Shown here piece by piece: positions 2,096 through 52,665 of a stretch of 64,000 nucleotides of DNA (the stretch's first letter is position 1; the number at the start of each line of letters is the position of its first letter). This stretch comes from Hydractinia symbiolongicarpus. Lineage: Eukaryota; Cnidaria; Hydrozoa; Anthoathecata; Hydractiniidae. Under the pieces are notes generated by a model, which searched no databases, was not told where the DNA came from, and worked only from the letters and a program-made list of their open reading frames with translations. A program made the position numbers and the translations under genes. Location: assembly GCF_029227915.1 (NCBI RefSeq), contig NC_079880.1, positions 23,622,501-23,686,500 on the forward strand, read 5' to 3'.

Positions 2096-3170
2096 AAAAT
2101 ATTAAATGTTATGTTAAATAAAAAGAAGGCGTTTAATTAATACACGTAGTTTTGTTTCAGAAGAAGACTCGTCTTTTTTACTAAGTTTGTGAAAAAAGGT
2201 ATATCTAGTTTTTGAAGTGCTAAGGGATAATTTATTCTCTTTAAACCATTTAGCTAATTCAGTCAATTCAGTGTTTGCAGTTTTAAAAAGGACGATTATA
2301 TCTTTATGAGTAGGAAATAAATTTTTATCATCAGCAAATAAATTGAATTTAAGACACTAGATGCTCTAAATATATGATTGGTATTAATAAGAAGTAATAG
2401 TGGTCCTAAAATTGACCCTTGAGGTACTCCACATGTTATAATCCTGTAGTTAGTATTTCCTTCGTCATAAGAAATTGTTTTCTTTCGAAGAGGTTTTTCT
2501 TGAACCATGCGAGATATGTATGTCTTATGCCATAATATTTTAGTTTTTCTAATAGAATCTCATGGTTGACTGTATCGAATGCCTTACTGAGATCAATAAA
2601 GACCACAATTGTAAAGTTATTCACATCGAAGGTATGAAATATCTCTTGACTCAACTGAATGATTGCGTGATCAGTTGTATGACCTACTTGAAATCCAAAT
2701 TGCTTATTATACAAAATATTTTTATTGTTCAAGAAAGAATAAACTCTGTTGTACATGATTCTCTCTAAAATCTTCGAGAAACAGGGGAGTATTGAAAATG
2801 GTCTGTAATTAGATATTTTATAAGTATTTCCTGATTTAAAAACTGGGCAACTATAGCTATTTTTAACTTTTTAGGAACAATGCCTGTAATGTGGAGTAGT
2901 GGAGATTTAAGTTCATTGAAGCAGCCTTTTAAGACATTACTGCTGATCTGATCAAAACCAGGACTTTTATTGATTTGCGAAGAATGAAATGCTGCTTCTA
3001 GTTCCTCCTCACTTCCCCTCCTCATCTTTTTTCTTCAATTCATTATCATGATATAACAAATACGATTTAAATGATTTTGCACTGTGAGCTATTTTTGATG
3101 CCCCTACTTTAGTAAAGAAATTGGTAAATTCTTCAGCTATCAAAGATGATTTCACAATTTCATTTTCGTT
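2096..3170 (-). pseudogene. Degenerate non-LTR retrotransposon reverse transcriptase (CR1/Jockey type)
   Basis: Read on the minus strand from about 3170 down to 2100, successive frames carry the landmarks of a LINE reverse transcriptase. These are a linker resembling NxFFxxVG, then NKSPGFDQISSNVLK, then FIDLSKAFDTVNHEILL (motif A), then CGVPQGSILGPLL (motif B). Next comes LFADDKN in another frame (motif C), and finally KWFKENKLSLSTSKT. The frame changes at least twice, between motifs A and B and between B and C, so the gene is dead. No endonuclease domain is visible on the upstream side. The clade assignment is from motif resemblance only. Confidence 0.85.
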
Positions 3171-12788: not shown

Positions 12789-14709
12789 ATGGATAAAAAC
12801 TTTGAAGAGGAGACTATTTGTTACTACAATCCAAAGACAGTGAAAAAGTTCCAACAAAGTGAAGAAAAAGAGAAAAAACGTAAAAAGATAGTCAAAGTTT
12901 TTATAGAATATGGGTGAGTGATATAAACTTTGTTATTTATAAGCTTTTGTTACTAAGCACGAAGTATTTATGCTGAATGTTGAATGTTGAATAACTGGAA
13001 ATCGTTTTCAATACCGAAAAAAACGCGCAAAATTTATGTGAAAAAAGTGATATATTTTTGTAAAAAAATGATTTTCATCTGTAAAAAAGTTTATGTTCTT
13101 CTAAAATTTTAGCGTGAAGTTTTTCAGGCTTTCAGTAAATGCGATAGAACCTTTCCTTTGCAAGAGCATTATGATGACAGTACCATTAGGAACTAAAAAA
13201 GCCTATCGAATGTAGAATGATCGTAATAGATAGAATAAAATTATTTTGTTATTTCAGGGGAAATTAACGGAACAAGGCATATATAAAATATGCTTAATTG
13301 TATATATTAAAACCTAAAATTTCTCTATATTTTATATCGTACGCGGAAATTCTAATTGACTTTGTGATTGTTTAATTTTTCCCTGATGACGAAGGGTGAT
13401 TATCTAATACATTCAATACCTCGCCGTTACCATAAACATGGTTAGTCAGCATATTTTAAATGGCTGAGTTTAATGAGATCAAATTATCTTTTTACAATCA
13501 CAACATGGCAAAATGGAAACATCGTTTTTCTTTTGATTAGAAGTAATGCTTCCTATATATATATATATATATATTGAAAACGTGCTTCGTTTCCATAAAG
13601 GGGTTAAAAAGGAAATCTTATAGAAAGAACAGGACAAGGTTTTTTATTAAGAAAGGACTCGCATCAACAAGGAAAGAAAAGGCAGTTTTTTTTTGCTCAG
13701 TCAACGTTAAAAATCAATATTCCATCTCCCTTTTAACTTTTCCGAAATTACAGGAGCGATAGGTGATGGGTCGGTTTAAAAAGTCGCATGGAAAAGTTTT
13801 TGCATTTGTAGTAATGGTTGATTATAACAGACTTATTTTATTGTTCAATTTTATATTTCTTGTAGATCTTCTTGAGGCTACTTTGGCCGTTACATGGAAT
13901 ATGCAACCTATATCAGGAAGACAGTTCCATCGGCCGAAGTTACCGGAAAGAAAGGACGTAGAAGTAAGTTACCGTTTTTTCGTCATCTACATTTTTGCGT
14001 AAAGAGAGCTTAAAAATACTCGTAATTTTGAAAATTTTGATTTTTTGCATTTTAATGGACAGAAAGTCTCTTTTGTAAGAATTATTTGGAAACGATAACT
14101 AAAATTGCTGCGATCAATGCATTTTGCTGAATTTCCCTCTGTTCGCATCTGTACAGATTCAGCACAAGATTCTGGATTTTAAAGAATATTAGCTTTAATT
14201 TTAGCTTTCCCTTTATCTGAAAATTAAAAAAGTGTTTGTTTGAATTAAAATTTAAACCCTTTAAAGAATTTCCTGTAGTTTAGGCATTTAAAAGACACGA
14301 AAATTGTACAGTTGAACAACACCATAAAAGTTGTAATTTGCAGAACACAAAATAAGCAAAGTTGGGATGATCTCTCCTCTTATTCGTTATTGTTTATATC
14401 TTTAGATTGTTTTGAAATCAAAGTTAATAATGAAGAAATTTTTTCAAAGTTAAAACAAGAAGGATTTCCGAAAGCAAGACAGGTATGTATTTTAAGGAAC
14501 AGATATTCGTCTTGTGCAATAATGCAGACTTGCGTTATCACCGCTGTTTTGTTTCTCAGTGTAGCTATGCTATCAAACAATTATGCAATCAATTAAGCGA
14601 CAATCAATTTTTCTTTTAGCTAATCAAAGAGATAAAGAATGCTAGAGAAGGACAACAACCAAAACAAATTGAAAAGAAAGATTATAATTCCGCTTGTACT
14701 ATACTATAA
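12789..14709 (+). CDS. MIEN1/Rdx12-like selenoprotein, prenylated thioredoxin-fold protein
   Basis: Four coding exons: 12789-12913, 13866-13963, 14406-14482, 14620-14709 (129 residues). All introns are GT-AG with good consensus (GTGAGT, GTAAGT, GTATGT donors; pyrimidine-rich acceptors). Exon 1 ends in KIVKVFIEYG. Exon 2 continues SS-TGA-GYFGRYMEYATYIRK. Exons 3 and 4 give FEIKVNNEEIFSKLKQEGFP and a LIKEIKNA helix ending in the CaaX box CTIL. From memory, human MIEN1 has [37 protein letters not shown] and a CVIL tail, so each block aligns. The TGA at 13873-13875 sits on the second cysteine of the family CxxC, and the downstream frame stays homologous and open for 80 more codons, so it should encode selenocysteine. 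The first motif cysteine is Gly here (G-S-S-U). Family members are membrane-tethered redox proteins; the activity of this one is inferred. Confidence 0.85.
13556..13576. repeat. (AT)n microsatellite
   Basis: About ten AT dinucleotides inside intron 1 of the MIEN1-like gene. Confidence 0.9.
13873..13875 (+). other. In-frame UGA (selenocysteine) codon
   Basis: The UGA is the fourth codon of exon 2, counting the codon split by the preceding intron. The other two phases of exon 2 do not fit the neighbours. The phase matching exon 1 (two leftover bases GG) and exon 3 (one leftover base A) gives family-like sequence on both sides of the UGA. Confidence 0.85.
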
Positions 14710-15058: not shown

Positions 15059-15133
15059 AGAGCGATGTTTGTGATGAGCTGCGACTTAATCATATTTTGA
15101 TGTTGCAGCTTTGATGATGATTTTACATCTTCT
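15059..15133 (+). promoter_or_regulatory. Putative SECIS element in the 3' UTR
   Basis: Hand-folded. A lower helix pairs GATGT (15064-15068) with ACATC (15125-15129). An internal loop follows, then a non-Watson-Crick quartet made from UGAU at 15072-15075 and UGAU at 15112-15115 (U-U, G-A, A-G, U-U). Above it is a helix of ten pairs: GAGCUGCGAC (15076-15085) with GUUGCAGCUU (15102-15111), including two G-U wobbles. The 16-nt apical loop carries AA at 15088-15089, 13 nt after the UGA of the quartet. This is the arrangement of a eukaryotic type I SECIS, with GUGA in place of the commoner AUGA. It sits about 350 nt after the stop codon. Confidence 0.75.
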
Positions 15134-15141
15134 GAAATGAT

Positions 15142-15147
15142 AATAAA
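15142..15147 (+). promoter_or_regulatory. Polyadenylation signal AATAAA
   Basis: AATAAA just downstream of the SECIS-like hairpin, giving a 3' UTR of about 440 nt that includes the SECIS. An earlier AATAAA overlaps the stop codon at 14709; using it would remove the SECIS. Confidence 0.5.
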
Positions 15148-18122: not shown

Positions 18123-21100
18123 ATGGAGTGTAAAACGGGTGACTCTATTCTTCATGCAGTGAATGAATACGTAAGCAAGCTCTCCCATTTTGTAAATGGT
18201 TCAAACGTATAGTCGCAGAGCTGAATTTAAACATCTGATGCTGCGATTTTTACATGTTTGGAGTCCAGTTTTTTTATTTGGAAAGATAATTATTTAATGG
18301 TTACAAAATTGATCATAATAAAGTGAAAAAAGAAACGAAAGAAAAGGTTTTTGTTTGAAAAGACTTTGCAGCAAGAAGCTATTTCGTTAAATTTTTTTAA
18401 AAAAAGTTTAAATATAAAGCCTACAGTCAGAGACATTTCAAGTAAAAGAAATATGACGCAAGAGAATTGATATGTCGTCTGCAGAAGAGTTTCCACTAGA
18501 TAAAATACCGCGCAACTAATCGAAGTATCGCTAAACTAATCGAAGTATCGCTAAACTAATTGAAGTATCGCTAAATTAATCGAAGTATCGCTAAATTAAT
18601 CGAAGTATCGCTAAATTAATCGAAGTATCGCTAAATTAATCGAAGTATCGCTAAATTAATCGAAGTATCGCTAAATTAATCGAAGTATCGCTAAATTAAT
18701 CGAAGTGTCGCTAAATTAATCGAAGTATCGCTAAATTAACTAAAAAAAAATATACAAGTAAACACTCAAAAAAACTGAGCACATCAACATGCCAGGTTCT
18801 ATTTTAATCAACGACGGACGTCGTTCAGCATCACCAGATCGACGAGTGACGTTTGGTAACATTGAGAGATACGATATCATGACGTCGAATGAAATCAAGA
18901 ACAACATTCAGCAAAGGGGAAGCAACAGAGATGTTATGACTGTAAATGGTAACTATCCAATGACAAGGTTGGACAATCGCATCAGAAAGGCTGTTATGCT
19001 TGGATTCGCCCATACTATAGGTCGGTACAACTTCTTACCCAGACTTCTCAGTCGAGTTGAATGAATCTAAGGAATACATAAGCTTTGGCTGTGTCAAAAC
19101 GTGATTAAAAACTGAATAATTGTTTTAGGAAAAAAAAGAAATAAAAACCCACATTTGTTGTCGCCATTACCTCGTCAGAATCAACACTTCCTCTAATTTA
19201 AACACTCTGCTTTTTAACTCTCCTTTTTCTTACAGTCTCACTTATGAGATTCGGTCCCTATTATTAAGTTTAAATTATATAAATACCTGTGATAACAAAA
19301 ATTGCATGATTCTAAAAATCGTAACACATACAACTACAAAAAAATAAAAATTAAAAAATTTCACTAAAAAAAACTATCCTTAGTTTTCTAGATTCTTAAC
19401 TTTTTATATGGTTCCAGTATAATTCTTGAGTTTCTAGGTTTTAAATATTTTAGGGCTTAAATATTTTCTTACATATATCACAGTTCCAAAATTGCTTCAC
19501 AACGCATGCGGTCACATCGTATGCGTTCACTGCTTTACAAATTATATATTTAGACGTACAGTAGTACGTGTACTGAGATGTAAATAAACTCTTCAGACGT
19601 AGGATTACACTACTCAAATGTCAGTGTATATGGCTAAAAATGCAATCTAGAGGAATAAATAAACTGTATCAAAAAAACATGCGGTCATGTTACGTGTCTA
19701 TTAAGTTCAGATGCCATATATACTATTCTATCATATCACAAAACAGACAACAAGAATAGTTACAATCAGCGTGGGTTTGTGTTTATCAATAAGCTCCTTG
19801 TTATCACAAAGCGCAATTAAAACCGGTGAAACGTACAAATTATTTTCAGCCAATGTAATTGTTTAATTTTATCACGTAATGCTCTAAGCCAATCAAAAAT
19901 GTAAACAAATATTTTACGCGATAACAAAAGTTTTAGGGATGTTTTAAACGAAACGCTTTTGCAAAAAATTGGAATCAGTGAACTCCCATTTTTTGTTGCA
20001 AGCAAACACAATACCCAACTTTCTAGATTAAAATAAATTTAAAAATAATGTAAAAAAATTCTTTAAGACGAAAGAAAAATTATACATGTTTCCAATTATC
20101 CGGATTCCCGCATAAGAGGGATATGTGTTAAAATAATACACTTTTATAAGAATCATAAAATTTAATTTGGTTTCATGTGTTTTTATTTTTTAACATAACA
20201 TTGTTCTTATTTCTGTTCTCTATCACGTACATTTGTATAAAAAACTCAAATAATTATTGTTGCACTAAAGAAAACACTAGCGAAGTGTTTTTAATTTGGT
20301 TTTAGGTGACTCTGTAGCATATGAAGAGATCATTGACTTTTTGTTGGAGTTTGACGTCATTGTCAATCCTAAAGTTTGCAACGAGCGGCAAATAACTGCG
20401 ATCGTTCAATCTTCATTCCCGAAATGCATTGTCAAATCAAGTGTTCGACATTCAGTGGTGTATTACAACCTAGAAAACCGCAGTGATGAAGTGGTGAAAG
20501 AAGAATTGGTACGTGTGACCACGGAGCCTGTAATAAACCCATACGACTCAGCCATCGCCGAAGCGCAGGCGTGGATTAAAGAAGAACCAGAAGGTTATGA
20601 ATCTGACGTTTCTGATGAAGAACTAACTTTAATCGAGGAGAAAAAAGAAGAAAATAACAACACCACATCTGCTGTCGAGTCAACAGACACTTCCTCGAAT
20701 CTTTCGACAAAAAACACAACCAAGTCTGATATGGGGCGTTTAAATAGTGATTCCTATAATGAAAACGGAACGCCCACAAAGAGGCGTAGTATTGAAATCG
20801 CTGTAACTGAAGGGCATTCGATTGAAAAAAGTATGCCTATCGCGAGGCGTTTTTATGACAGTGGAAATAACGACGAGATTAAACCTATGAGAGAATACAT
20901 TGTTGAGAGAAGTACGCCCGTCCAGGATCAAATGATACAAAGAAGTACGCCCGTCCATGATCAAATGATACAAAGAAGTACGCCTGTCCATGATCAAATG
21001 ATACAAAGAAGTACGCCTGTCCATGATCACATGGTGCAAAGAAGAACGCCCGCCCATGATCAAATGATGCAGAGGAGTACGCCCGTCCATGATCAAATAT

Positions 21101-22743
21101 TACAAAGAAATACGCCTATTAGAGATCACATGGTTGGAAGAAATACACCAATCAAAGAACAGCACATGCAAAAACCGACCGTAATGAGAGATCATGTTCT
21201 AGACAGAAATACAATAATAACAGAAAACATATCAGGACAAAATTCATCGACAATAGAACTTTCATCTCCAGTGAGAGAGCGTGCTATCGATGTACCAGAC
21301 TCTGCTGTTATCCAAAATAAAAATAAAAGAGAGATCGGAGTGAAGACGGGGGTTCACAAATCAGAAAAACAAGTTAATTTGAAAAGAACAGGTTCGTTTT
21401 CAAACGCTACTCAAAGTCACAGCGTTACCGATATGGCAAAAAAATTCGAATCGAAACCCCCTGATAGTCCATCAAAATCAAGTTTACAACGAAAACGATC
21501 ATTCACTCGCTCAACTGATCGTTCTTTTGTTGGTTCAATAAGAGATCGATTCCGTGCAAGTAAATCAAAAGAAGAAAATAAAAAAGGAGGCGACGAAAAG
21601 AAAGATAAAAAAGCTAAAAAAGGGGATGATGAAAGGAAAGATACAGATTCTGTAAATCATAACGAAGATAGCAAAACGAAGATCCCGAGCACTAGTATAA
21701 CTCGTAACACCACGCGAACAAGCAGTGTTCGTAAAAATCAAGGTTTAAGTGGAAGTTGCGTCGATGTAAGAAGTTCTTTTCGTAACAAAACCGAAACAGA
21801 GCGAGGTTTAACTCGAAACTCTTCAACAAGTGCTAGCGCTACTGATATTCGCAGCTCGTTTCGAAATAGTTCGACAAGGTCTTCAATCAATCGTTCGGTG
21901 CAACGTTTAAATAAAGAAGAAAACAGTGCTCCTAAAAGTCCGTACCTGCAAAGAGCTAACAATGCTCAAAAACCGTCACAAACGAATGAGCTACGTGCTT
22001 CATTGCGACGCACATCTGCCGAAAAACAAACAAACCGCTCTGAGTTAGTGACACGAGGGAGCATTAACAGAAGTTCGTATCGCGCAGCAAACTCATCTAG
22101 CTCTTCTCTCTTGCCAGGAAGCAATCGCTCATCTTTTAGAGATTCCAAAACTGGTGCTGTGAAAAGAACAAACTCGCGTAAAGGTTTATCATCCAAGGGT
22201 AGTTCTCAAACATCGAGCACCTCCAGTACCCCAAGTATCTCTCGCGAAAATTCAAAAACTAATATAAAAATACCCGAGAAGAAGCCGACAAAACCACAAT
22301 CAAGTCAGGAAAAAGATTTAGTTAGAATTGCAAAAGCATTTCAAAAGGCGACGAAAGAAGTCGACACTGCAAAGGATAGAATCGAGAAATTTATGATTGG
22401 AATAGCAACTGACGATCTCGAAGAAGCACCAAACGAACGATTGAAACTCGATGATTTATACAATCACATAAGACATCGAATGATACTCGCAAAAGACTCG
22501 ATATTTGAAAACCACCGATCCAACGTAACTGTAGACATGAGTCAGTATTTTGAACTCTTATTTAAAACGCTAGCATCTCATTTCGATCGAGTGGGTTGTG
22601 AAATGATCACCAACAAAACGACAAAAGAACACACGTGTTTTCTGATTCACGTCAAGCTTGTTGATTACGTCGACGACTTAGGAGATTTGACGGCGGCGAG
22701 TGTTGAAGAAGAGGACGAAAGTCCACGAGCAAGCTATGTTTGA
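18123..22743 (+). CDS. Large basic disordered protein of unknown family, about 815 residues
   Basis: The terminal exon is certain: after the acceptor ttggttttag, 20306-22743 is open for 812 codons to TGA. Residues 1-90 look globular (SVAYEEIIDFLLEFDVIVNP, then VRHSVVYYNLE). An acidic region with ESDVSDEE follows. Next come about ten copies of an 11-residue repeat (QRSTPVHDQMI-like, 20905-21240). A very basic Ser/Arg/Lys stretch follows, with a Lys-rich run and many SSFRNSS-type phrases. The end is a helical, globular-looking 130-residue domain (LVRIAKAFQKATKEVDTAKD onward). A likely first exon is ATGGAGTGTAAAACGG at 18123-18138 before GTGACT; its one leftover base restores phase and gives MECKTGDSVAYEE. 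An alternative donor, GTAAGC at 18171, would need another exon. Nucleic-acid or cytoskeletal binding is possible but not shown. An ATTAAA polyA signal lies at 22818. Confidence 0.6.
18511..18740. repeat. 20-bp tandem repeat, 11 units plus a partial
   Basis: The unit cgaagtatcgctaaattaat runs without interruption from 18521 to 18740; the last ten bases of a unit precede it. Units differ at only a few positions (ctaaac versus ctaaat, one tgaag, one gtgtcg), so amplification is recent. It ends 48 bp before the ATG of the 91-codon ORF. Confidence 0.95.
18789..19064 (+). CDS. Orphan 91-residue ORF with an RVTF motif
   Basis: Single-exon frame from ATG 18789 to the stop at 19064; I recognise no family. 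The sequence is polar and basic. It opens MPGSILINDGRRSASPDRRV, has TFGNIERYDIM next, and ends FLPRLLSRVE. RRVTFG fits the RVxF docking motif for protein phosphatase 1, and SASPDR is a plausible phosphosite next to it; both are inference from motif only. AATAAA occurs near 19140. If the candidate exon at 18123 belongs to the large gene ending at 22743, this ORF would lie inside its first intron. Confidence 0.4.
   Translation: MPGSILINDGRRSASPDRRVTFGNIERYDIMTSNEIKNNIQQRGSNRDVMTVNGNYPMTRLDNRIRKAVMLGFAHTIGRYNFLPRLLSRVE
20905..21240 (+). repeat. 33-bp coding repeat (11-residue unit)
   Basis: About ten units encoding variants of RSTPVHDQMIQ. Units 2-4 are almost identical in DNA, and later units decay (GRNTPIKEQHM, QKPTVMRDHVL). 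Each unit carries a Thr-Pro, a potential proline-directed phosphosite, every 11 residues. Confidence 0.9.
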
Positions 22744-31866: not shown

Positions 31867-34800
31867 ATGCGCGACATCATTTGGCAACAACAAAATACAC
31901 CAGTTGATAGCAGTTATCAGAACGAACGGAAGTATAAAATTAATGAGCGAGATAGACAATATGCCACAGACCAACCGGAAAAAATTCACTTTAATGTTTC
32001 ACCGGCCGATGTAAATTCAGTGAATTCTGGTTTTTCAACTTCTAAACCTATATCTAAAATTAATAAATCTAATCAGAAAGAGTCAACAGGCATTGGAGTG
32101 TACTTGAATGGGAATAGTGATATAGCTGGTGGCAAGTGGAGTGTTGCAACCGACGATAATCAAAATCCACAGGTGCGTATTTCTCTTATGTTATTGTTGA
32201 ACAGAGTGACCGACAGTTGTTGTGATTGTTTGTTGGATTTTCTAGGAAGCCTGGGATAAAACTACTCAAGTTCGCAAGTCACACAACATGTTTACTTTTG
32301 AAAATCATTGGCAAGAATCCTCTTGGAGTATGGGTGCTGATGGAAGCAATGATAAATCAGAGCATGCCATCTCACAACCTATTACAATGGTCCAAAGAAG
32401 ACCGGAGCAGTATGGACCACCACAGCAAGTGACATCTCCCCGATCTGCAGATGGTTCTGTGTTGGGTGTGCACATGGTTGAATATGTCTTAGCATCGTCA
32501 CCGGGTGGTCATGAAATCGAAAACCACATGAAGGGAATGAATATAAATGGAAATCTAGTAGGTTTATATCAATATGACAATATGAACCAATATATTTTAC
32601 TAAAGCACGCCATGTAAAAGTTACTTTTCCAAATTTTGTGTATCTCATCATATAGAGTAAAAACTATTAGTAATACCAAACAAAACTGCGATAAAATATG
32701 TTAAATCATAGTTTTTACATCCTTGAAAAAATCTGAAAAAACACTTTTTCAAAATTTGTGTCAAGCAAATCACTTATTATTGTGGAACATATTTTAGCAG
32801 TGAATTGATAAAAATACTATGTTGGTTTGCAATCAAATTTTGTGAGTAAACATATAAGTTTACCCAGAAAAGTTATTGCAAACCAATTTGCAGATACTTA
32901 GTTTTGGATCATGAGCAAAAAATTAGGAAACCTGGGACGAGCAAATGAGGGTCATTTTGGCAAAAAGTTTATGTTAATCAACTTTATAATACCTATGCAT
33001 TAAAAAGTTTAAATGCACATTCTTTGACAGGTCTAAAATTACTGACAAATGTCAAAATTTGCTATTACTTAAATATGATTAATTCATGCAGCATAATTAA
33101 ATCTGAAATACCTTTAATTCTAAATATCTTAGAATGAAAAGAGATTTCCAAAAAATTCAAAAACACTTGTTAACCAACTTTGTCTTTATAAGTTCAGCAT
33201 CATTTTTACCTCGGGTTCCCTTTAAGGTGCAAGTTAAAGCGCATATCAGTTTGCACATCCTGAAATAAATTTCAGTGCAAAAATTTTACTTCAGGTGTAC
33301 AGGTGTCTACCTAAAGTTTGTTAGAGTGTTTAATTTCTTTCTTTCTAGGAGGTGTCCAACACGCAATTACCAAATGGAAATGTTGTGGCAAGAAAGTCTC
33401 CTTTTGAAGAAGAAGATGAAATTGAAAATAACTCCCAGCATTCTCAAAATGAATCAGAAGAACCAACTCTTTTTATGTAAGTACTGTTATTTTTTAATGT
33501 CGGGCTTGACAATAAAATTTTTTGCTCTTGCCCACTTGTGGCAGTATTGTATCACACAGTAGTTTTATTTTACTTTAAATATTTTGTCTTGCTTTGGAAT
33601 GTTTTATTATTAGTGTTACAATTCTAAAGAAATTATGATGTATCTTTTTAACCTAAACATAATATATATAAATTTTATCATTTAGGGGTGGACAACAAGC
33701 TAGTAGCAGTAGAAATGAGTCCCCTCTGCCATTAAATTCACAAGACACTGCTGCTGCATTAGGACCAATGATCTCAGGTAACAACCCATCCAGTAAACCA
33801 AGCTCTACATCATCTGGTGCTCAGGAAGATCAAGTTACATCTCCTATACCATTCGCTCAAAATGTGGACCAGAATGGCAGTACCATAGAGCCGAATCAAA
33901 TTGGTTACGAACCTAGTATACAGGAACAGACACAAGGTGTCGCTGTATCCAATGCAATGGCAGCTACTCAACAGCAGCAACAAGGTCAACCACAACATTT
34001 TGTATTTGGTCAACAACAAGCTATGGGTATGGGTAGCCCATATTTTGTTGCAAATACTGCTGGAGGCCAAGATCCATATGGTCAAAATGGTGGTATTCCT
34101 ATTGTAAATGCAAATGGACAAACAACTGTCATTCACCCTCAGTATGCAGCTGCTTATGGTATTCAGCCATATGTTTATGCCAACCAAAATGGTGGCCAAT
34201 TTGTCCAGGGACAGCCACAACCTTCACAAGATCCACGGACACCAACTACATCAACAACCTCGTCTTCACAAGGACCTCAACAAATGCAGGGTCAACAACA
34301 ACAAATTCCTGCAGGATACATGGTTCAGGCACCTATTAATTTTCCAGCTGGATCCACATTTTATGATCAACATGGCAACCCTGTTATTATTAATGGTAGA
34401 ATGACTGCACCTATGACGAACCACCTTGGACAAACTGTGCGAGTCATGTCCCCAGTCGTTTTAAATGCTAATGGACCACCAACAGTTAGTCCTGGAATAC
34501 ACAGTGGGACTTCACCTTCACTCCAGATGTATAGTCAACAACAACAACAACAGGCTAACCAGCAACAGCAACAACCTCCAAGAGGTAAACCTTTCTTCTT
34601 CATGTAAAATTTAAAAAAATTGCATATTAGACACACACAAAAATATGTTTTACATATTGCATTGTTTTTCTCAGGAATAAATTTGGGATATTTGTCTACT
34701 GGTCAACTTGGACCCCTCCCTGGTCAGAATGCAATGCAAGCTGCTCCGGTTGGTGTAATCGGAGGTCATCTTCAGTCTACTGGAACAGGACCATTGCCAT

Positions 34801-37800
34801 CTCCGGGTGGACCAAGAGATGTGTATAGTGCATTAGGGCCATCTAAACGTCCTGGTGCTCAAGTCTATACACAGGGAATGGTAGGCTCATACAATTCACT
34901 CTCTGTAAATACACCATTAGCAAATGCATTGAACATTACCAATCCAAATACTTCACCACTTCATTCACAAGGACAGACAACATTTGATATAGGATCGCCA
35001 GCAAACAGTCGACTCTCGGGCTACGCCAGTTTACTAAATCCCACTAATGATATGAGAAGAGGGTATGGCACAGCAGGTTTAGGAAGCTCCATATTTGGCT
35101 CTAGTACAGCTGGTTTATACAGAAGAGCAGGTGGCAGAGACAGTGGAAGGTCAAAGTTACTTGAAGATTTTCGTAACAACAGGTTTCCTAACCTTCAACT
35201 TCATGATCTGCAAAGACATATAGTTGAGTTTTCTCAAGATCAACATGGTTCTAGATTTATACAACAAAAACTGGAAAGAGCTAGCATATTGGAGAAAAAC
35301 ATGGTGTTTAACGAGATCTTGACAGCTGCTTACAGTTTAATGACCGATGTATTTGGAAATTATGTTATCCAAAAATTTTTCGAATTTGGCTCTCCTGAAC
35401 AAAAATTGCTGCTTGCACAAAGAATTAAAGGCCATGTACTACCATTAGCTCTGCAGATGTATGGATGCAGAGTTATACAAAAAGCATTGGAGACGATACC
35501 GCCAGAAATGACAATACATGTAGGTTCTTATTTTTTAATCAGAATTTAACGAAATGTGTGGTGTTGAGAGATTTATCAATACAGTCAATTTCTTTTTTAC
35601 TATTAACTTGTGCTTTAATTTATGAGAATGACTTTAAAATTTGTCTGCATTAATCATTAAAGCTGTAGACATTTTACATAGTTCAATAAAACTTTTAGAG
35701 TGAATTAGTACGTGAATTGGATGGGCATGTTTTGAAATGCGTAAAGGATCAAAATGGTAACCATGTTGTTCAAAAGTGTATCGAGTGTGTGGATTCAGTA
35801 CAGCTGCAGTTCATCATTGATGCTTTCCAAGGACAGGTATGTTTCTTAAGTATAGACCGATTCCTGTGTGACATAATGTTTTGATTTTGTGTTAATACAC
35901 ACTCACTAGGTAGAAAATATAAACATGAATATAGTTAAAAAAAAAATAGAATTTCAGTGCTTTTTGGATCCAAAATGTCTGTTTTGTTAAACTCATTTCT
36001 ATCTTAAACTACTGTTCTCTACTTTTAAAATTCTAATTAATGTAGGTTTTTGCATTATCCACCCACCCGTATGGATGTCGTGTTATTCAACGCATACTTG
36101 AGCATTGCACTACTGAGCAAACATCTCCAATTCTGGGAGAATTACACGAACACACTGAAAGATTGATCCAAGATCAATATGGAAATTATGTCATTCAACA
36201 TGTACTTGAACATGGAAGTGCCGATGATAAATCAACTATTGTTAATATTGTCCGTGGAAATGTATTATTGCTCAGTCAGCATAAATTTGCAAGGTTAGTG
36301 TTAAGTAAAGTTTTTTATGCTAAACATAAACTCATTGTTCTAGTTGACCATTTCTAGCAATGTATGGACATTTTCAAAATGGATGCATGTGTACCAAGAA
36401 GCCTGTTGGAATGTTATTTATTTGTTAGTCACACATTTTTACTAGGCTTTATGCTGACACAGCATATTGGATGATAGTGAAATATATTTAATATTACAAT
36501 ATATTATCTTTAGTAATGTGATTGAGAAATGTGTGTCTCATGCGTCAAGAGCTGAACGTTCCATGTTGATTGAAGAAGTTTGCAATTATGCTGATGGGTA
36601 GGTTTCTATTGTGGAACACAAGAATTTCTTAGCACTCTGGCTTCCTCTAAGATTTTGGAAATTAAAAATCCTTGCTGTGTTCGTTTTTCTTGCTGTTGTT
36701 GTTATGGGAACTGTTTACAGGGTTTTTCCCATTGAAAACTCAGTGTGTGCAACCCTCAAAATAATTTTTGGAGACTCTCAGACAAAATGTCCGCCACATC
36801 TCCAGCTTGGTCGGACATGTCTGTAGCTTGTTTCAAACTTTCGTCGGACAAAACGTCTGATTTTAATCCATAAGCAAGCCTATTCATAGCCAACCTGACC
36901 ATCCTAGCTAATTCACCGACTCCTGACTTAGTTAAAAGAACTGCGTAGACATAAATCTCTATTTCCTGGCCACTTCGTCATTGGTAACCAGGTCACACGC
37001 AAGAAATCCAGCCATGCGGTTCTTCATTAATGCCGGCCGAGGTAAACGGTGACAGAGAACGGATGAAGCAAGTCTGCAAAACTGCACTTACAGGCGAAAC
37101 AGACATTATACCATCGATTTAATTGTAGATAATTTCTTCATTTAACAAAACAATTGGAAACCATAGCAGGTCCCATTTAATTGAATTTTTTCTTTATGTC
37201 GCAAGTGTTATTTTCATTCAAACAATTTTAAAAACGAAACCCACGTGCGGTAATTTTTTTAGTTTTTTTTTAATTTGAAAACGAAGCATATTATTTCCCA
37301 TTCGCTTGTGATGAGTTTACAAATAATAATAATAATGTGAATTGATTGGTTTATTTAAATGCACAGCCTTACTTTGTTTAACGGAGCCGCCCAACAGATT
37401 TTTTAGTTGTGGTATGTGTGATCATGATTAAGAAACTTCCATGATGGCACATGGCAGATGAAAACAAAACGAAAGTGATGTGGAACGAAGATTGATTAAA
37501 AGATGCAAGATTATATTTGAATTATCTCATTATTTTGCATGTTTCAATTTTTAATTTTTGAAGTTATTAAAAGGCAGATGTAGCTACAGAAACGTGCTGG
37601 ACAAAATGACAGGCCTGTATTGATTTTCGTCTGACATATTTGCGTCTGGGTCGGACAATGTTCGCTTACCGACCGCTATTTCGAGGGCTGTTTGTGGAAA
37701 GCAATCCACAAAGGTTAAAAAACTAAGTAATTCAAATTTTGAATATACTTTTTTAGAATGTTTTTTATCAAAAAGGGGAAAAAGAAAAAAAAATTAGACC

Positions 37801-41636: not shown

Positions 41637-48889
<7,253 letters not shown>

Positions 48890-49542: not shown

Positions 49543-52500
49543 ATGTTCAAGCAATTACTAGAAGCTGTTGAACCCTCACATGTCATCACGGGAGCAGTTT
49601 GTGGATATTTTCTATACTACTTTTATAAAGTTGTTCACCGTCCAGTGTTAATAGCTGCTGATGGAGAATTTAAATCAATTTTGTCAGATGAATTAGTTAT
49701 ATTAAAGGAACATTGGTGGCCTACTTTTTGGGCATTTAATACACATTTTCAAACCATAACACGGGTTTTATTTAAAGCAAAACCACATATCTCCTATAAA
49801 AGGTAAGTTAGAAGTGTATAGCTATAATATACTATTTGCTTTCCAAAATCATTGTAAAAAAAGTGAATGGTTGGGTGCAAAGAATTTTTCCCATTGATTT
49901 TTAGAGAAATATTGAATACACCAGACCATGGGCAATTCAGTTTGGATTGGCTTGACCCTGATGAGGACAATGATAAATTTCCTGATCCAGCAGTGAGGCC
50001 AACATTAGTTGTTCTTCCTGGTATTACAGGTGAGTATAATCTTGCAAATCTGCCATAACCTGTTGTAACTATGGAAAGAGTTATCCTCAAACAAATTTAT
50101 GTTTAAAATTAGTGTTTGGAAAGAGCTTGGAGGAAGAAAGACAGAAGGAGAAACTATTTTCTGTATGCTTTAAGTGTTTTGAATTTTCCGTGGTTTTTAA
50201 TTTCAAAAGAGTCAGAACGTGATGTGCTTGACTAAGTTTTTTAATCTAGTTCTAAAATCCCCTTTAATATAATCTGACTCTAAAACATTGCTGAGAGTAA
50301 AATTTGTATCGAGAATATATACCAAATATATTATGTTGGTAAAAATTCTATGCAAAAAGTTTAGTATTTAAAATATTTATAAAGTTGGAATAATAATCTA
50401 TTTTTACAAGCTGAATATTTACAAACAAGTACTGATAATAAGGGGCTGGCCAGGGCTGACAAAATGTTTGGAAACTTAATGTTCTTTTTTTTTGTCTACG
50501 AATGCGTAGAGCATGAGATTTTATTGCTAATTATGCGTTTGTAATAACATAATTATATATCATGATGATATTGGAAATTTGGTATACTTTTAACTAAATA
50601 CACAAATGTAGAGTTTCAATGTAAAGTAGTTGTTTCTGGAGTATATTTTAGTGTTTCAAGAAAAAAAGTGCATAGAAATTTAATTATCATTCTAAAAATA
50701 ATTTTTGTTTTTAAAGAAACCTGCCCATGTTTTATTTGTGAAAGATTAAACCCAAAAATAAAAAAAGTTCATCTTTTTTTCAAAAGTACAGAGAAGATGG
50801 TTTTGAGAAAAAAAGTAAAAGTAAATACACAGCTTGTATATTTTTTTATCATCTTTTTTATAACTTCTCATTCAGAAATTATCAACCAGAAAATACAGTA
50901 ATTGTTTACTCTAAACCAATCACAATTGCAGATTTCAATTTACGAATAATTTATTCACAAAACTGCCAAACTTTAATATTTAGTTTCTATGCAGATATCT
51001 TTGTTTCAATATAATCCAAAGATATGTTTTTCTGTCTGTCTTTCTTCCTCTGACGAAAGAGATAAAATTTATGCAAACAGAAAGTCTTCAAAAACTCAAA
51101 AATTATTATTGGAATACTCAAATAAATTTTTCTGAAAAACTTGTTGGTGGAAAATTTTTGCTACAAGTTATTATTATTCCATATAGGGATGTATGGATTT
51201 TGTTACATTTGTGATTTTACCGCTGTCCTTATCAATAAAATAGTCTTGTTACGTAATAAATAATTTCTCCTAACTTATTATGTTTAGGCTGTAGCGATGC
51301 AAGTTATGTTAGAACTGTAATCATTGAAGCAGAGAAAATGGGCTTTCGGTTGGTAAATATTTGTTTCACAAGTTATGCTGGTAGGGGATCAGTTCCTAAA
51401 ATAGTGTGACATTTTTATGTTTTAAAAAAGGAAGTGAGGAAAAATATGAACAACCTATCAAGTATTTTGTCTGCTATGGAAAATAGAAAGTAAGTCATAT
51501 TTTGGCACATATAACCTTAAAAGTAAGTCAAAAATGATCACTCACTATTCACTTTAAGCCTTCCATGATAAAATGACAACATTTCTTCCCCCAAAAAACT
51601 AAAGTAATATCCTATATTGTCCATCCCCTGGCACAGTTATGTGGTAAGTCAAATCCAAAAGTAAGTCAGAAATTCACCTACATCATCTATGCATAAAATG
51701 AAGTAGAGCAAGTCAATTTTTATTGTTTTTTCACAGCCTTATAGCTAAAGGCCGTTTCTAAGTTTAACTTCAACCAAAGTTCGAGAAGTCAAAAATTGTC
51801 AATTCCGACCTATTTTTACAGACAAACGGTAATAGGAAATTATTATTACTGTGGAAAGTTTATCATTTCTTGAACATGATAGTTTAGTAGCCGACGTTTC
51901 GGGAGATCCTTCACCCATCATCAGGCAAAGTAAAATGATGTTGCGCATGTATTTATATAATTGCAGAGGATCAAAATTCATAAAAATTAACCAATATCAG
52001 AAACGAGCTGATAATTACAGTTAATTATGGTCATTAACATTTTCGGACCTAGATGTAGGTAACTACTTCTTCTGTAGGGCTGGTAACCAAATCTCAGGAA
52101 GTTGATACGAGATTCTGTTTATGTGTTTGTTACATTCTACACTGTTGATGGTTTCTTTAATCTTCCTGGCTGTTTTTCTGGATTCTCTGTCAATGATTTT
52201 ATTCTCATCCCAATTAAACTAATGACATCTGCTCCAGCTGTGGTCCGCAATTCCGTTTTTCTTCACATCTCCGTTTCTCACTGCGTACATATGTTCTTGT
52301 ACTCGTTGTTTAAACTTTCTTTTTGTTTCGCCTATATACACTGCATCACAATCTTTACACGGGATTTCGTAAACAACATTGCTTTGTTCTTCCAGGTTTA
52401 TTTTGTCTTTTGGTTTAGACAAAGTGCTTCTTAGGGTGTCTTTAGAGTTAAGATTGCATTTGATCTTGTGTTCCCTAAAACTTGACGAAGGATCTCGCTG

Positions 52501-52665
52501 GTACCTGGTACGAAGGGTAGGAATGCTGATGCGATAAATTCCTCTGATGTTTCCTTGTTGTCTCTGTTGCATCCTCTCTTCATTTTATTTTCTACTTGCG
52601 TGATGACTTTATGACTGTATCCATTTGCGATTAATGCATTTCTTACACGTCACGAAAATTATTAA

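Follow-up and report, generated by a model that had tools for sequence, protein, structure and literature searches.

A probable selenocysteine-decoding SelW2-type gene with a GxxU motif and a CaaX box in Hydractinia symbiolongicarpus

The stretch of DNA analysed here (the window) comprises 64,000 nucleotides of the genome of the hydroid Hydractinia symbiolongicarpus and contains, on its forward strand, a four-exon gene of the Rdx family that is interrupted by an in-frame TGA (Table 1). A SECIS element candidate and a possible poly(A) signal follow the gene. Among the other features of the window, the Pumilio-repeat open frame is preceded, just upstream, by a Gln-rich frame (33672-34607) with no Pfam match, and the two frames may belong to one gene. 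The reverse transcriptase fragment is probably the remnant of a retroelement.

Table 1. Features identified in the 64-kb window (positions are those of the window)
Feature	Position	Strand	Remarks
Reverse transcriptase fragment	2436-2870	-	PF00078, 60.7 bits
Exon 1	12789-12913	+	Met1 to the first two bases of codon 42
Exon 2	13866-13963	+	Last base of codon 42 (Gly), then SSUGYFGRY...; contains the putative Sec TGA
In-frame TGA	13873-13875	+	Codon 45; predicted Sec
Exon 3	14406-14482	+	Encodes CFEIKVNNEEIFSKLKQEGFPKARQ; Cys76 codon at 14408-14410
Exon 4	14620-14709	+	Stop codon TAA at 14707-14709
CTIL CaaX box	14695-14706	+	Predicted geranylgeranylation site
SECIS element candidate	15064-15129	+	Rfam RF00031 (SECIS_1), 25.4 bits
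AATAAA, possible poly(A) signal	15142-15147	+	12 nt after the SECIS candidate
820-codon open frame	20281-22743	+	No Pfam match; repeated units like MIQRSTPVHDQ
Pumilio-repeat open frame	34608-35549	+	PF00806, 113.5 bits
tRNA-Arg, anticodon TCT	48634-48707	-	
Marginal GIY-YIG frame	52219-52584	-	22.3 bits (cut-off, 22.6)

The four exons, all of which have GT..AG borders, join into a 390-nt frame with a single internal stop, the TGA, and encode a conceptual protein of 129 aa, MDKNFEEETICYYNPKTVKKFQQSEEKEKKRKKIVKVFIEYGSS[TGA]GYFGRYMEYATYIRKTVPSAEVTGKKGRRNCFEIKVNNEEIFSKLKQEGFPKARQLIKEIKNAREGQQPKQIEKKDYNSACTIL. The original prediction of four phase-consistent exons with a CTIL end, interrupted only by this TGA, was thus borne out. 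Exon 1 encodes a Lys-rich N-terminal extension followed by KIVKVFIEY, of which KVFIEY aligns with VKVHIEYC of the relatives, and ends at the donor G/GTGAGT; the acceptor of exon 2 (13866) has 12 pyrimidines out of 15. Codon 42, which encodes Gly at the first position of the active-site motif, is split by intron 1 (12912-12913 and 13866). As originally stated, 44 codons precede the TGA, but only 41 of them and two further bases lie in exon 1, the rest being located in exon 2. The Gly at the first motif position had also been printed correctly, although without comment on the lost Cys.

In profile searches, in which Cys was substituted for the TGA-encoded residue, the protein scored 61.1 bits against Pfam Rdx (PF10262; cut-off, 22.6) and 55.8 bits against NCBIfam TIGR02174 (CXXU_selWTH; cut-off, 34.2), placing it in the Rdx family. 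Among PDB chains, human MIEN1 (2ljk; E 3.1e-14) was the sole solved chain matched at E <= 0.001, and the next Rdx-type chain (3dex) had an E value of 0.4. The nine PDB matches obtained up to E 10 include bacterial SelW-type chains with E values of 0.4 and 2.3, and mouse SelW (2npb) is absent from them; human MIEN1, used as the query, matches mouse SelW at E 5.3e-05. In the alignment with human MIEN1 (a sequence identical to residues 3-117 of 2ljk), the TGA occupies the column of the second Cys in the human CEPC motif, as had been proposed. A structure model was made of the carp relative P0119 (pLDDT 86) rather than of the spliced window protein; its best PDB match is also 2ljk, and by this model position 45 would lie in the loop that follows strand 1 in a thioredoxin-like fold.

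Several features point to SelW2, namely a UGA at the Sec column that has conserved sequence to either side of it, a closer relationship to MIEN1 than to SelW1 as judged by pairwise scores and not by a tree, and the CaaX box (CTIL here and CVIL or CIIL in P0119, P0105, and P0120), which is a feature of the relatives found in this analysis and not one given as defining SelW2 in the cited literature. The motif is GxxU and not the CxxC of MIEN1/Rdx12. Because the first position of the motif, GSSU, is occupied by Gly, the gene was filed as a SelW2 variant and not as a standard member.

The 78 residues of the window protein from Met52 are identical to the NCBI record P0001 of H. symbiolongicarpus, annotated as 'migration and invasion enhancer 1-like' and located on a 33.9-Mb contig. 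Because this record begins past the TGA, standard annotation has indeed truncated the gene as foreseen, but at its front and not at its back. A Pocillopora coral record (P0155) starts exactly after the Sec column. P0002, another record of 78 aa (97% identical), originates from contigs no longer than 985 bases and reads exons 2 to 4, which together with two introns span 844 bases in the window, without a break; we infer that it was derived from spliced RNA. In P0003, which reads exon 3 in its genomic frame, all 25 exon 3 residues are identical to those of the window, whereas in its intron-encoded flanks an ungapped comparison gives 32 matches in 43 residues on the upstream side and 12 in 37 on the downstream side. 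This contrast, together with the identity of P0002, argues that the region past the TGA is under selection.

Three protein searches were carried out, the third of which was directed at invertebrates and started from the core of the window protein together with four invented rows. Relatives were counted in the best 120 of the 160 rows of the third search and the best 120 of the 292 rows of the second, the latter providing 118 further rows, largely of vertebrate MIEN1. Rows in which the site was missing or did not fit the pattern were left out (80 of 120 and 32 of 118, respectively), and the counted relatives include some bacterial or unnamed sequences. In the 40 readable motifs from the third search, the Sec column, which the original prediction had proposed to inspect for U or C, is occupied by W in 34 and C in 6; 39 of the motifs have Cys at the first position, and one, that of P0150, has Gly. 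The 86 readable motifs from the second search consist of 84 CxxC and two CxxW (the fish-like P0105 and P0120), so that the first Cys is kept in 125 of 126 readable relatives among the best rows of both searches. To judge from these protein records, and not from DNA, W at the Sec column most likely represents a UGA that the source records translated as Trp; U was passed as C in the search data, and some of the C rows may thus also be Sec. Cys at position -4 was found in 82 of the best 120 rows of the third search, including 23 of the 34 rows with W. UGA at the Sec column combined with a CaaX tail therefore appears, from these records, to be widespread, possibly forming a broad selenoprotein group with a predicted lipid anchor. 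P0105 and P0120, unnamed rows that share 66 and 82% identity, respectively, with carp P0119, combine W at the Sec column with a CaaX ending. P0150 (EYGGGWGY) carries the same Gly change as the Hydractinia gene. A fish SelW2-like record from Sebastes fasciatus (P0144) has CGGG at the motif, which suggests that Sec was lost to Gly, and P0157 (EYDGAGY) likewise departs from CxxU; both are outside the counted rows.

The SECIS candidate, which the original prediction had not looked for, was first spotted by eye, and a short stretch was then searched with Rfam. At this site the SECIS_1 model is matched over its whole length with the GA/GA quartet in register (E 0.0023 in a search of 111 bases), at a score that does not reach the gathering score of 35. 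The core, GUGA...AA...UGAU (15071-15115), begins 361 nt past the stop codon and 617 nt past the TGA. The candidate comprises helix I (GAUGU/ACAUC), a GUGA/GA quartet, 13 nt to the AA, and a 10-bp helix II. The UGA..GA quartet, the AA spacing, and the register of helix II are thus those of a SECIS element, but the quartet is preceded by G and not by A (AUGA). According to the available text of PMC3473315, GUGA is found in 12 of 21 sponge SECIS elements and in most elements of some green algae, whereas nearly all of the invertebrate elements that it covers from outside the sponges have AUGA. An alternative core that begins with the AUGA at 15074 (spacing, 10 nt) was considered and rejected, as its quartet is out of register with helix II. 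For the segment 15050-15150, the folding energy is -28.7 kcal/mol (z -4.23), and the stem is also present when the complete 3' UTR is folded (z -3.07). SECIS_1 was not listed in a scan of the 64-kb window at the gathering score or in a 4.8-kb scan up to E 10. Two control stretches of SECIS-like sequence elsewhere in the window, subjected to the same search, returned 15.0 bits and no SECIS match, respectively.

A simple SECIS consensus is useless alone, because it matches the window 56 times against 50.4 expected by chance, and a loose descriptor with mismatches allowed gave five candidates on both strands (1.26 expected per strand), so that shape alone is weak evidence. A strict descriptor (R-UGA-N, AA after 11-14 nt, NGAN in register, and helix II without mismatch) with at least 8 pairs gave three matches at two places in the window. 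Among these, 15071-15115 is the sole match with at least 10 pairs including 5 G-C, a cut-off picked after the candidate had been seen and reached by no match in 25.6 Mb of sequence simulated with the dinucleotides of the window. A second AATAAA at 14709 overlaps the stop codon, and its use for polyadenylation could produce a message without the SECIS candidate.

The sequence, its conservation, and the SECIS candidate together make it very likely that the UGA is decoded as Sec, and we assign a probability of roughly 0.88 to a Sec-decoded SelW2-type gene. The best explanation is that the gene is a hydrozoan SelW2, the sister form of MIEN1/Rdx12 that contains Sec. A SECIS element in the 3' UTR of the spliced mRNA would allow the UGA to be read as Sec, and the product, 129 aa long, would be an Rdx protein of thioredoxin fold that carries Sec in the loop following its first strand. 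The C-terminal CTIL box, which ends in Leu and thus fits GGTase-I, would be geranylgeranylated and tether the protein to a membrane. For MIEN1, the available text of PMC6738349 reports that geranylgeranylation of the CaaX Cys promotes membrane anchoring and filopodia. The gene model and the SECIS candidate support, as probable, the Sec-containing CaaX-box relative of MIEN1 envisaged by the original prediction.

The TGA might instead be a nonsense mutation of the Cys codon in a decayed MIEN1 gene, leaving a short downstream product or none; the NCBI model does correspond to the 78-aa part past the TGA. Such a product would, however, be without strand 1 and the active site, and the constraint past the TGA seen in P0002 and in exon 3 of P0003, as well as the presence of the SECIS candidate, makes this explanation very improbable. 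Pseudogene decay was rejected on the exon 3 versus intron-flank identity of P0003. A marginally smaller chance is given to alternative splicing to an acceptor at 13917, which would remove the TGA and yield an in-frame protein without the active site. With the exon 1 donor fixed, this is the sole acceptor in 12960-13954 that gives an open frame, but its pyrimidine tract is weaker (9 of 15 versus 12 of 15), the 17 codons removed include those for the active-site loop and a portion of helix 1, and the spliced P0002 still encodes MEYATYIR, residues that this acceptor would skip. Skipping exon 2 altogether breaks the frame. Splicing around the TGA was rejected on these grounds.

The Gly at the first motif position could also be an artefact of the assembly or gene model, with Sec used in a real CxxU motif; this explanation overlaps with the SelW2-type reading, and the odds of the two are not exclusive. 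The splitting of codon 42 across intron 1 and the near-universal Cys in the relatives with a readable motif are in its favour, but the two splice sites have a canonical appearance, the alignment of exon 1 extends through codon 41, and P0150 has the same change, so that we regard an artefact as improbable.

In a GxxU motif, Sec is without its CxxU partner, and no Sec-S bond can form within the motif. Much less certainty attaches to the redox mechanism than to the assignment to a Sec-decoded SelW2-type gene; most likely, the protein would act as a one-selenol enzyme with glutathione or another thiol as its partner. This is a simpler reading than a relocation of the redox partner, in which the CxxU Cys has become Gly and Cys76 would pair with Sec, a rather doubtful proposal that, if it fails, leaves a one-selenol SelW2. 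Cys76 is the residue preceding FE. This residue is readable in 234 of the 238 returned proteins and is A in 112, S in 108, and C in 5, the last being P0001-P0003 and the salamander records P0126 and P0153. Neither salamander record has a visible active-site motif. In the predicted structure (carp P0119 numbering), Cys76 is situated just before strand 3 and, by analogy with the cis-Pro loop of thioredoxin, may be near the active site. P0150, the other GxxU row, has Ser at this position, which speaks against the Cys swap as a general rule. If the swap were true, the gene would encode a selenoprotein tethered to the membrane in which Sec pairs with a non-adjacent Cys. The GxxU form allows one to ask which thiol resolves Sec in the family.

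SelW2 itself has been described previously. According to the available text of PMC3316567, bony fish, frog, and elephant shark have it in selenoprotein form, and SelW2c of pufferfish carries CxxR; the paper treats Rdx12 (MIEN1) as a remote SelW2 homologue with Cys at the Sec position that is hypothesized to have arisen from a SelW2 duplicate, in which case Sec would be the older state. SelW2 is also recorded in planarian, schistosome, and Trichoplax in the available text of PMC3828610, and a table in PMC3473315 gives two SelW for Nematostella. On these sources, the suggestion that such a form may be undescribed is not supported, and the novelty is modest because SelW2 was already known. Literature searches found papers pairing selenoprotein and Hydractinia, none of which concerns this gene by title, and, among the papers searched, none with both SelW2 and CaaX; GxxU was not found among the matches listed, and none of the matches listed in a broader search, which combined prenylation with SelW2 under its various names, mentioned SelW2. 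The unusual part is the lost first Cys (GxxU), which makes the gene a variant. In addition, a truncated public annotation in a hydroid is corrected.

Compared with known systems, the protein shares with SelW1 (SelW) the Rdx family and the location of Sec, but differs in the absence of mouse SelW from its PDB matches and the weak matches to bacterial SelW-type chains described above; SelW1 is not known to have a CaaX box. With MIEN1 (Rdx12, C17orf37), its closest solved structure by sequence, it shares the Rdx thioredoxin-like fold and the CaaX box (CVIL in human and CTIL in Hydractinia), whereas MIEN1 has CxxC without Sec and, according to the available text of PMC3527542, is strongly acidic around the active site, a further difference from the Hydractinia protein. 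With SelW2 (SelW2a/b/c in fish), it shares the TGA at the second active-site position, the Rdx domain, and a SECIS candidate in the 3' UTR, and it is distinguished by GxxU instead of CxxU, the Lys-rich N-terminal extension, and a GUGA-type SECIS candidate.
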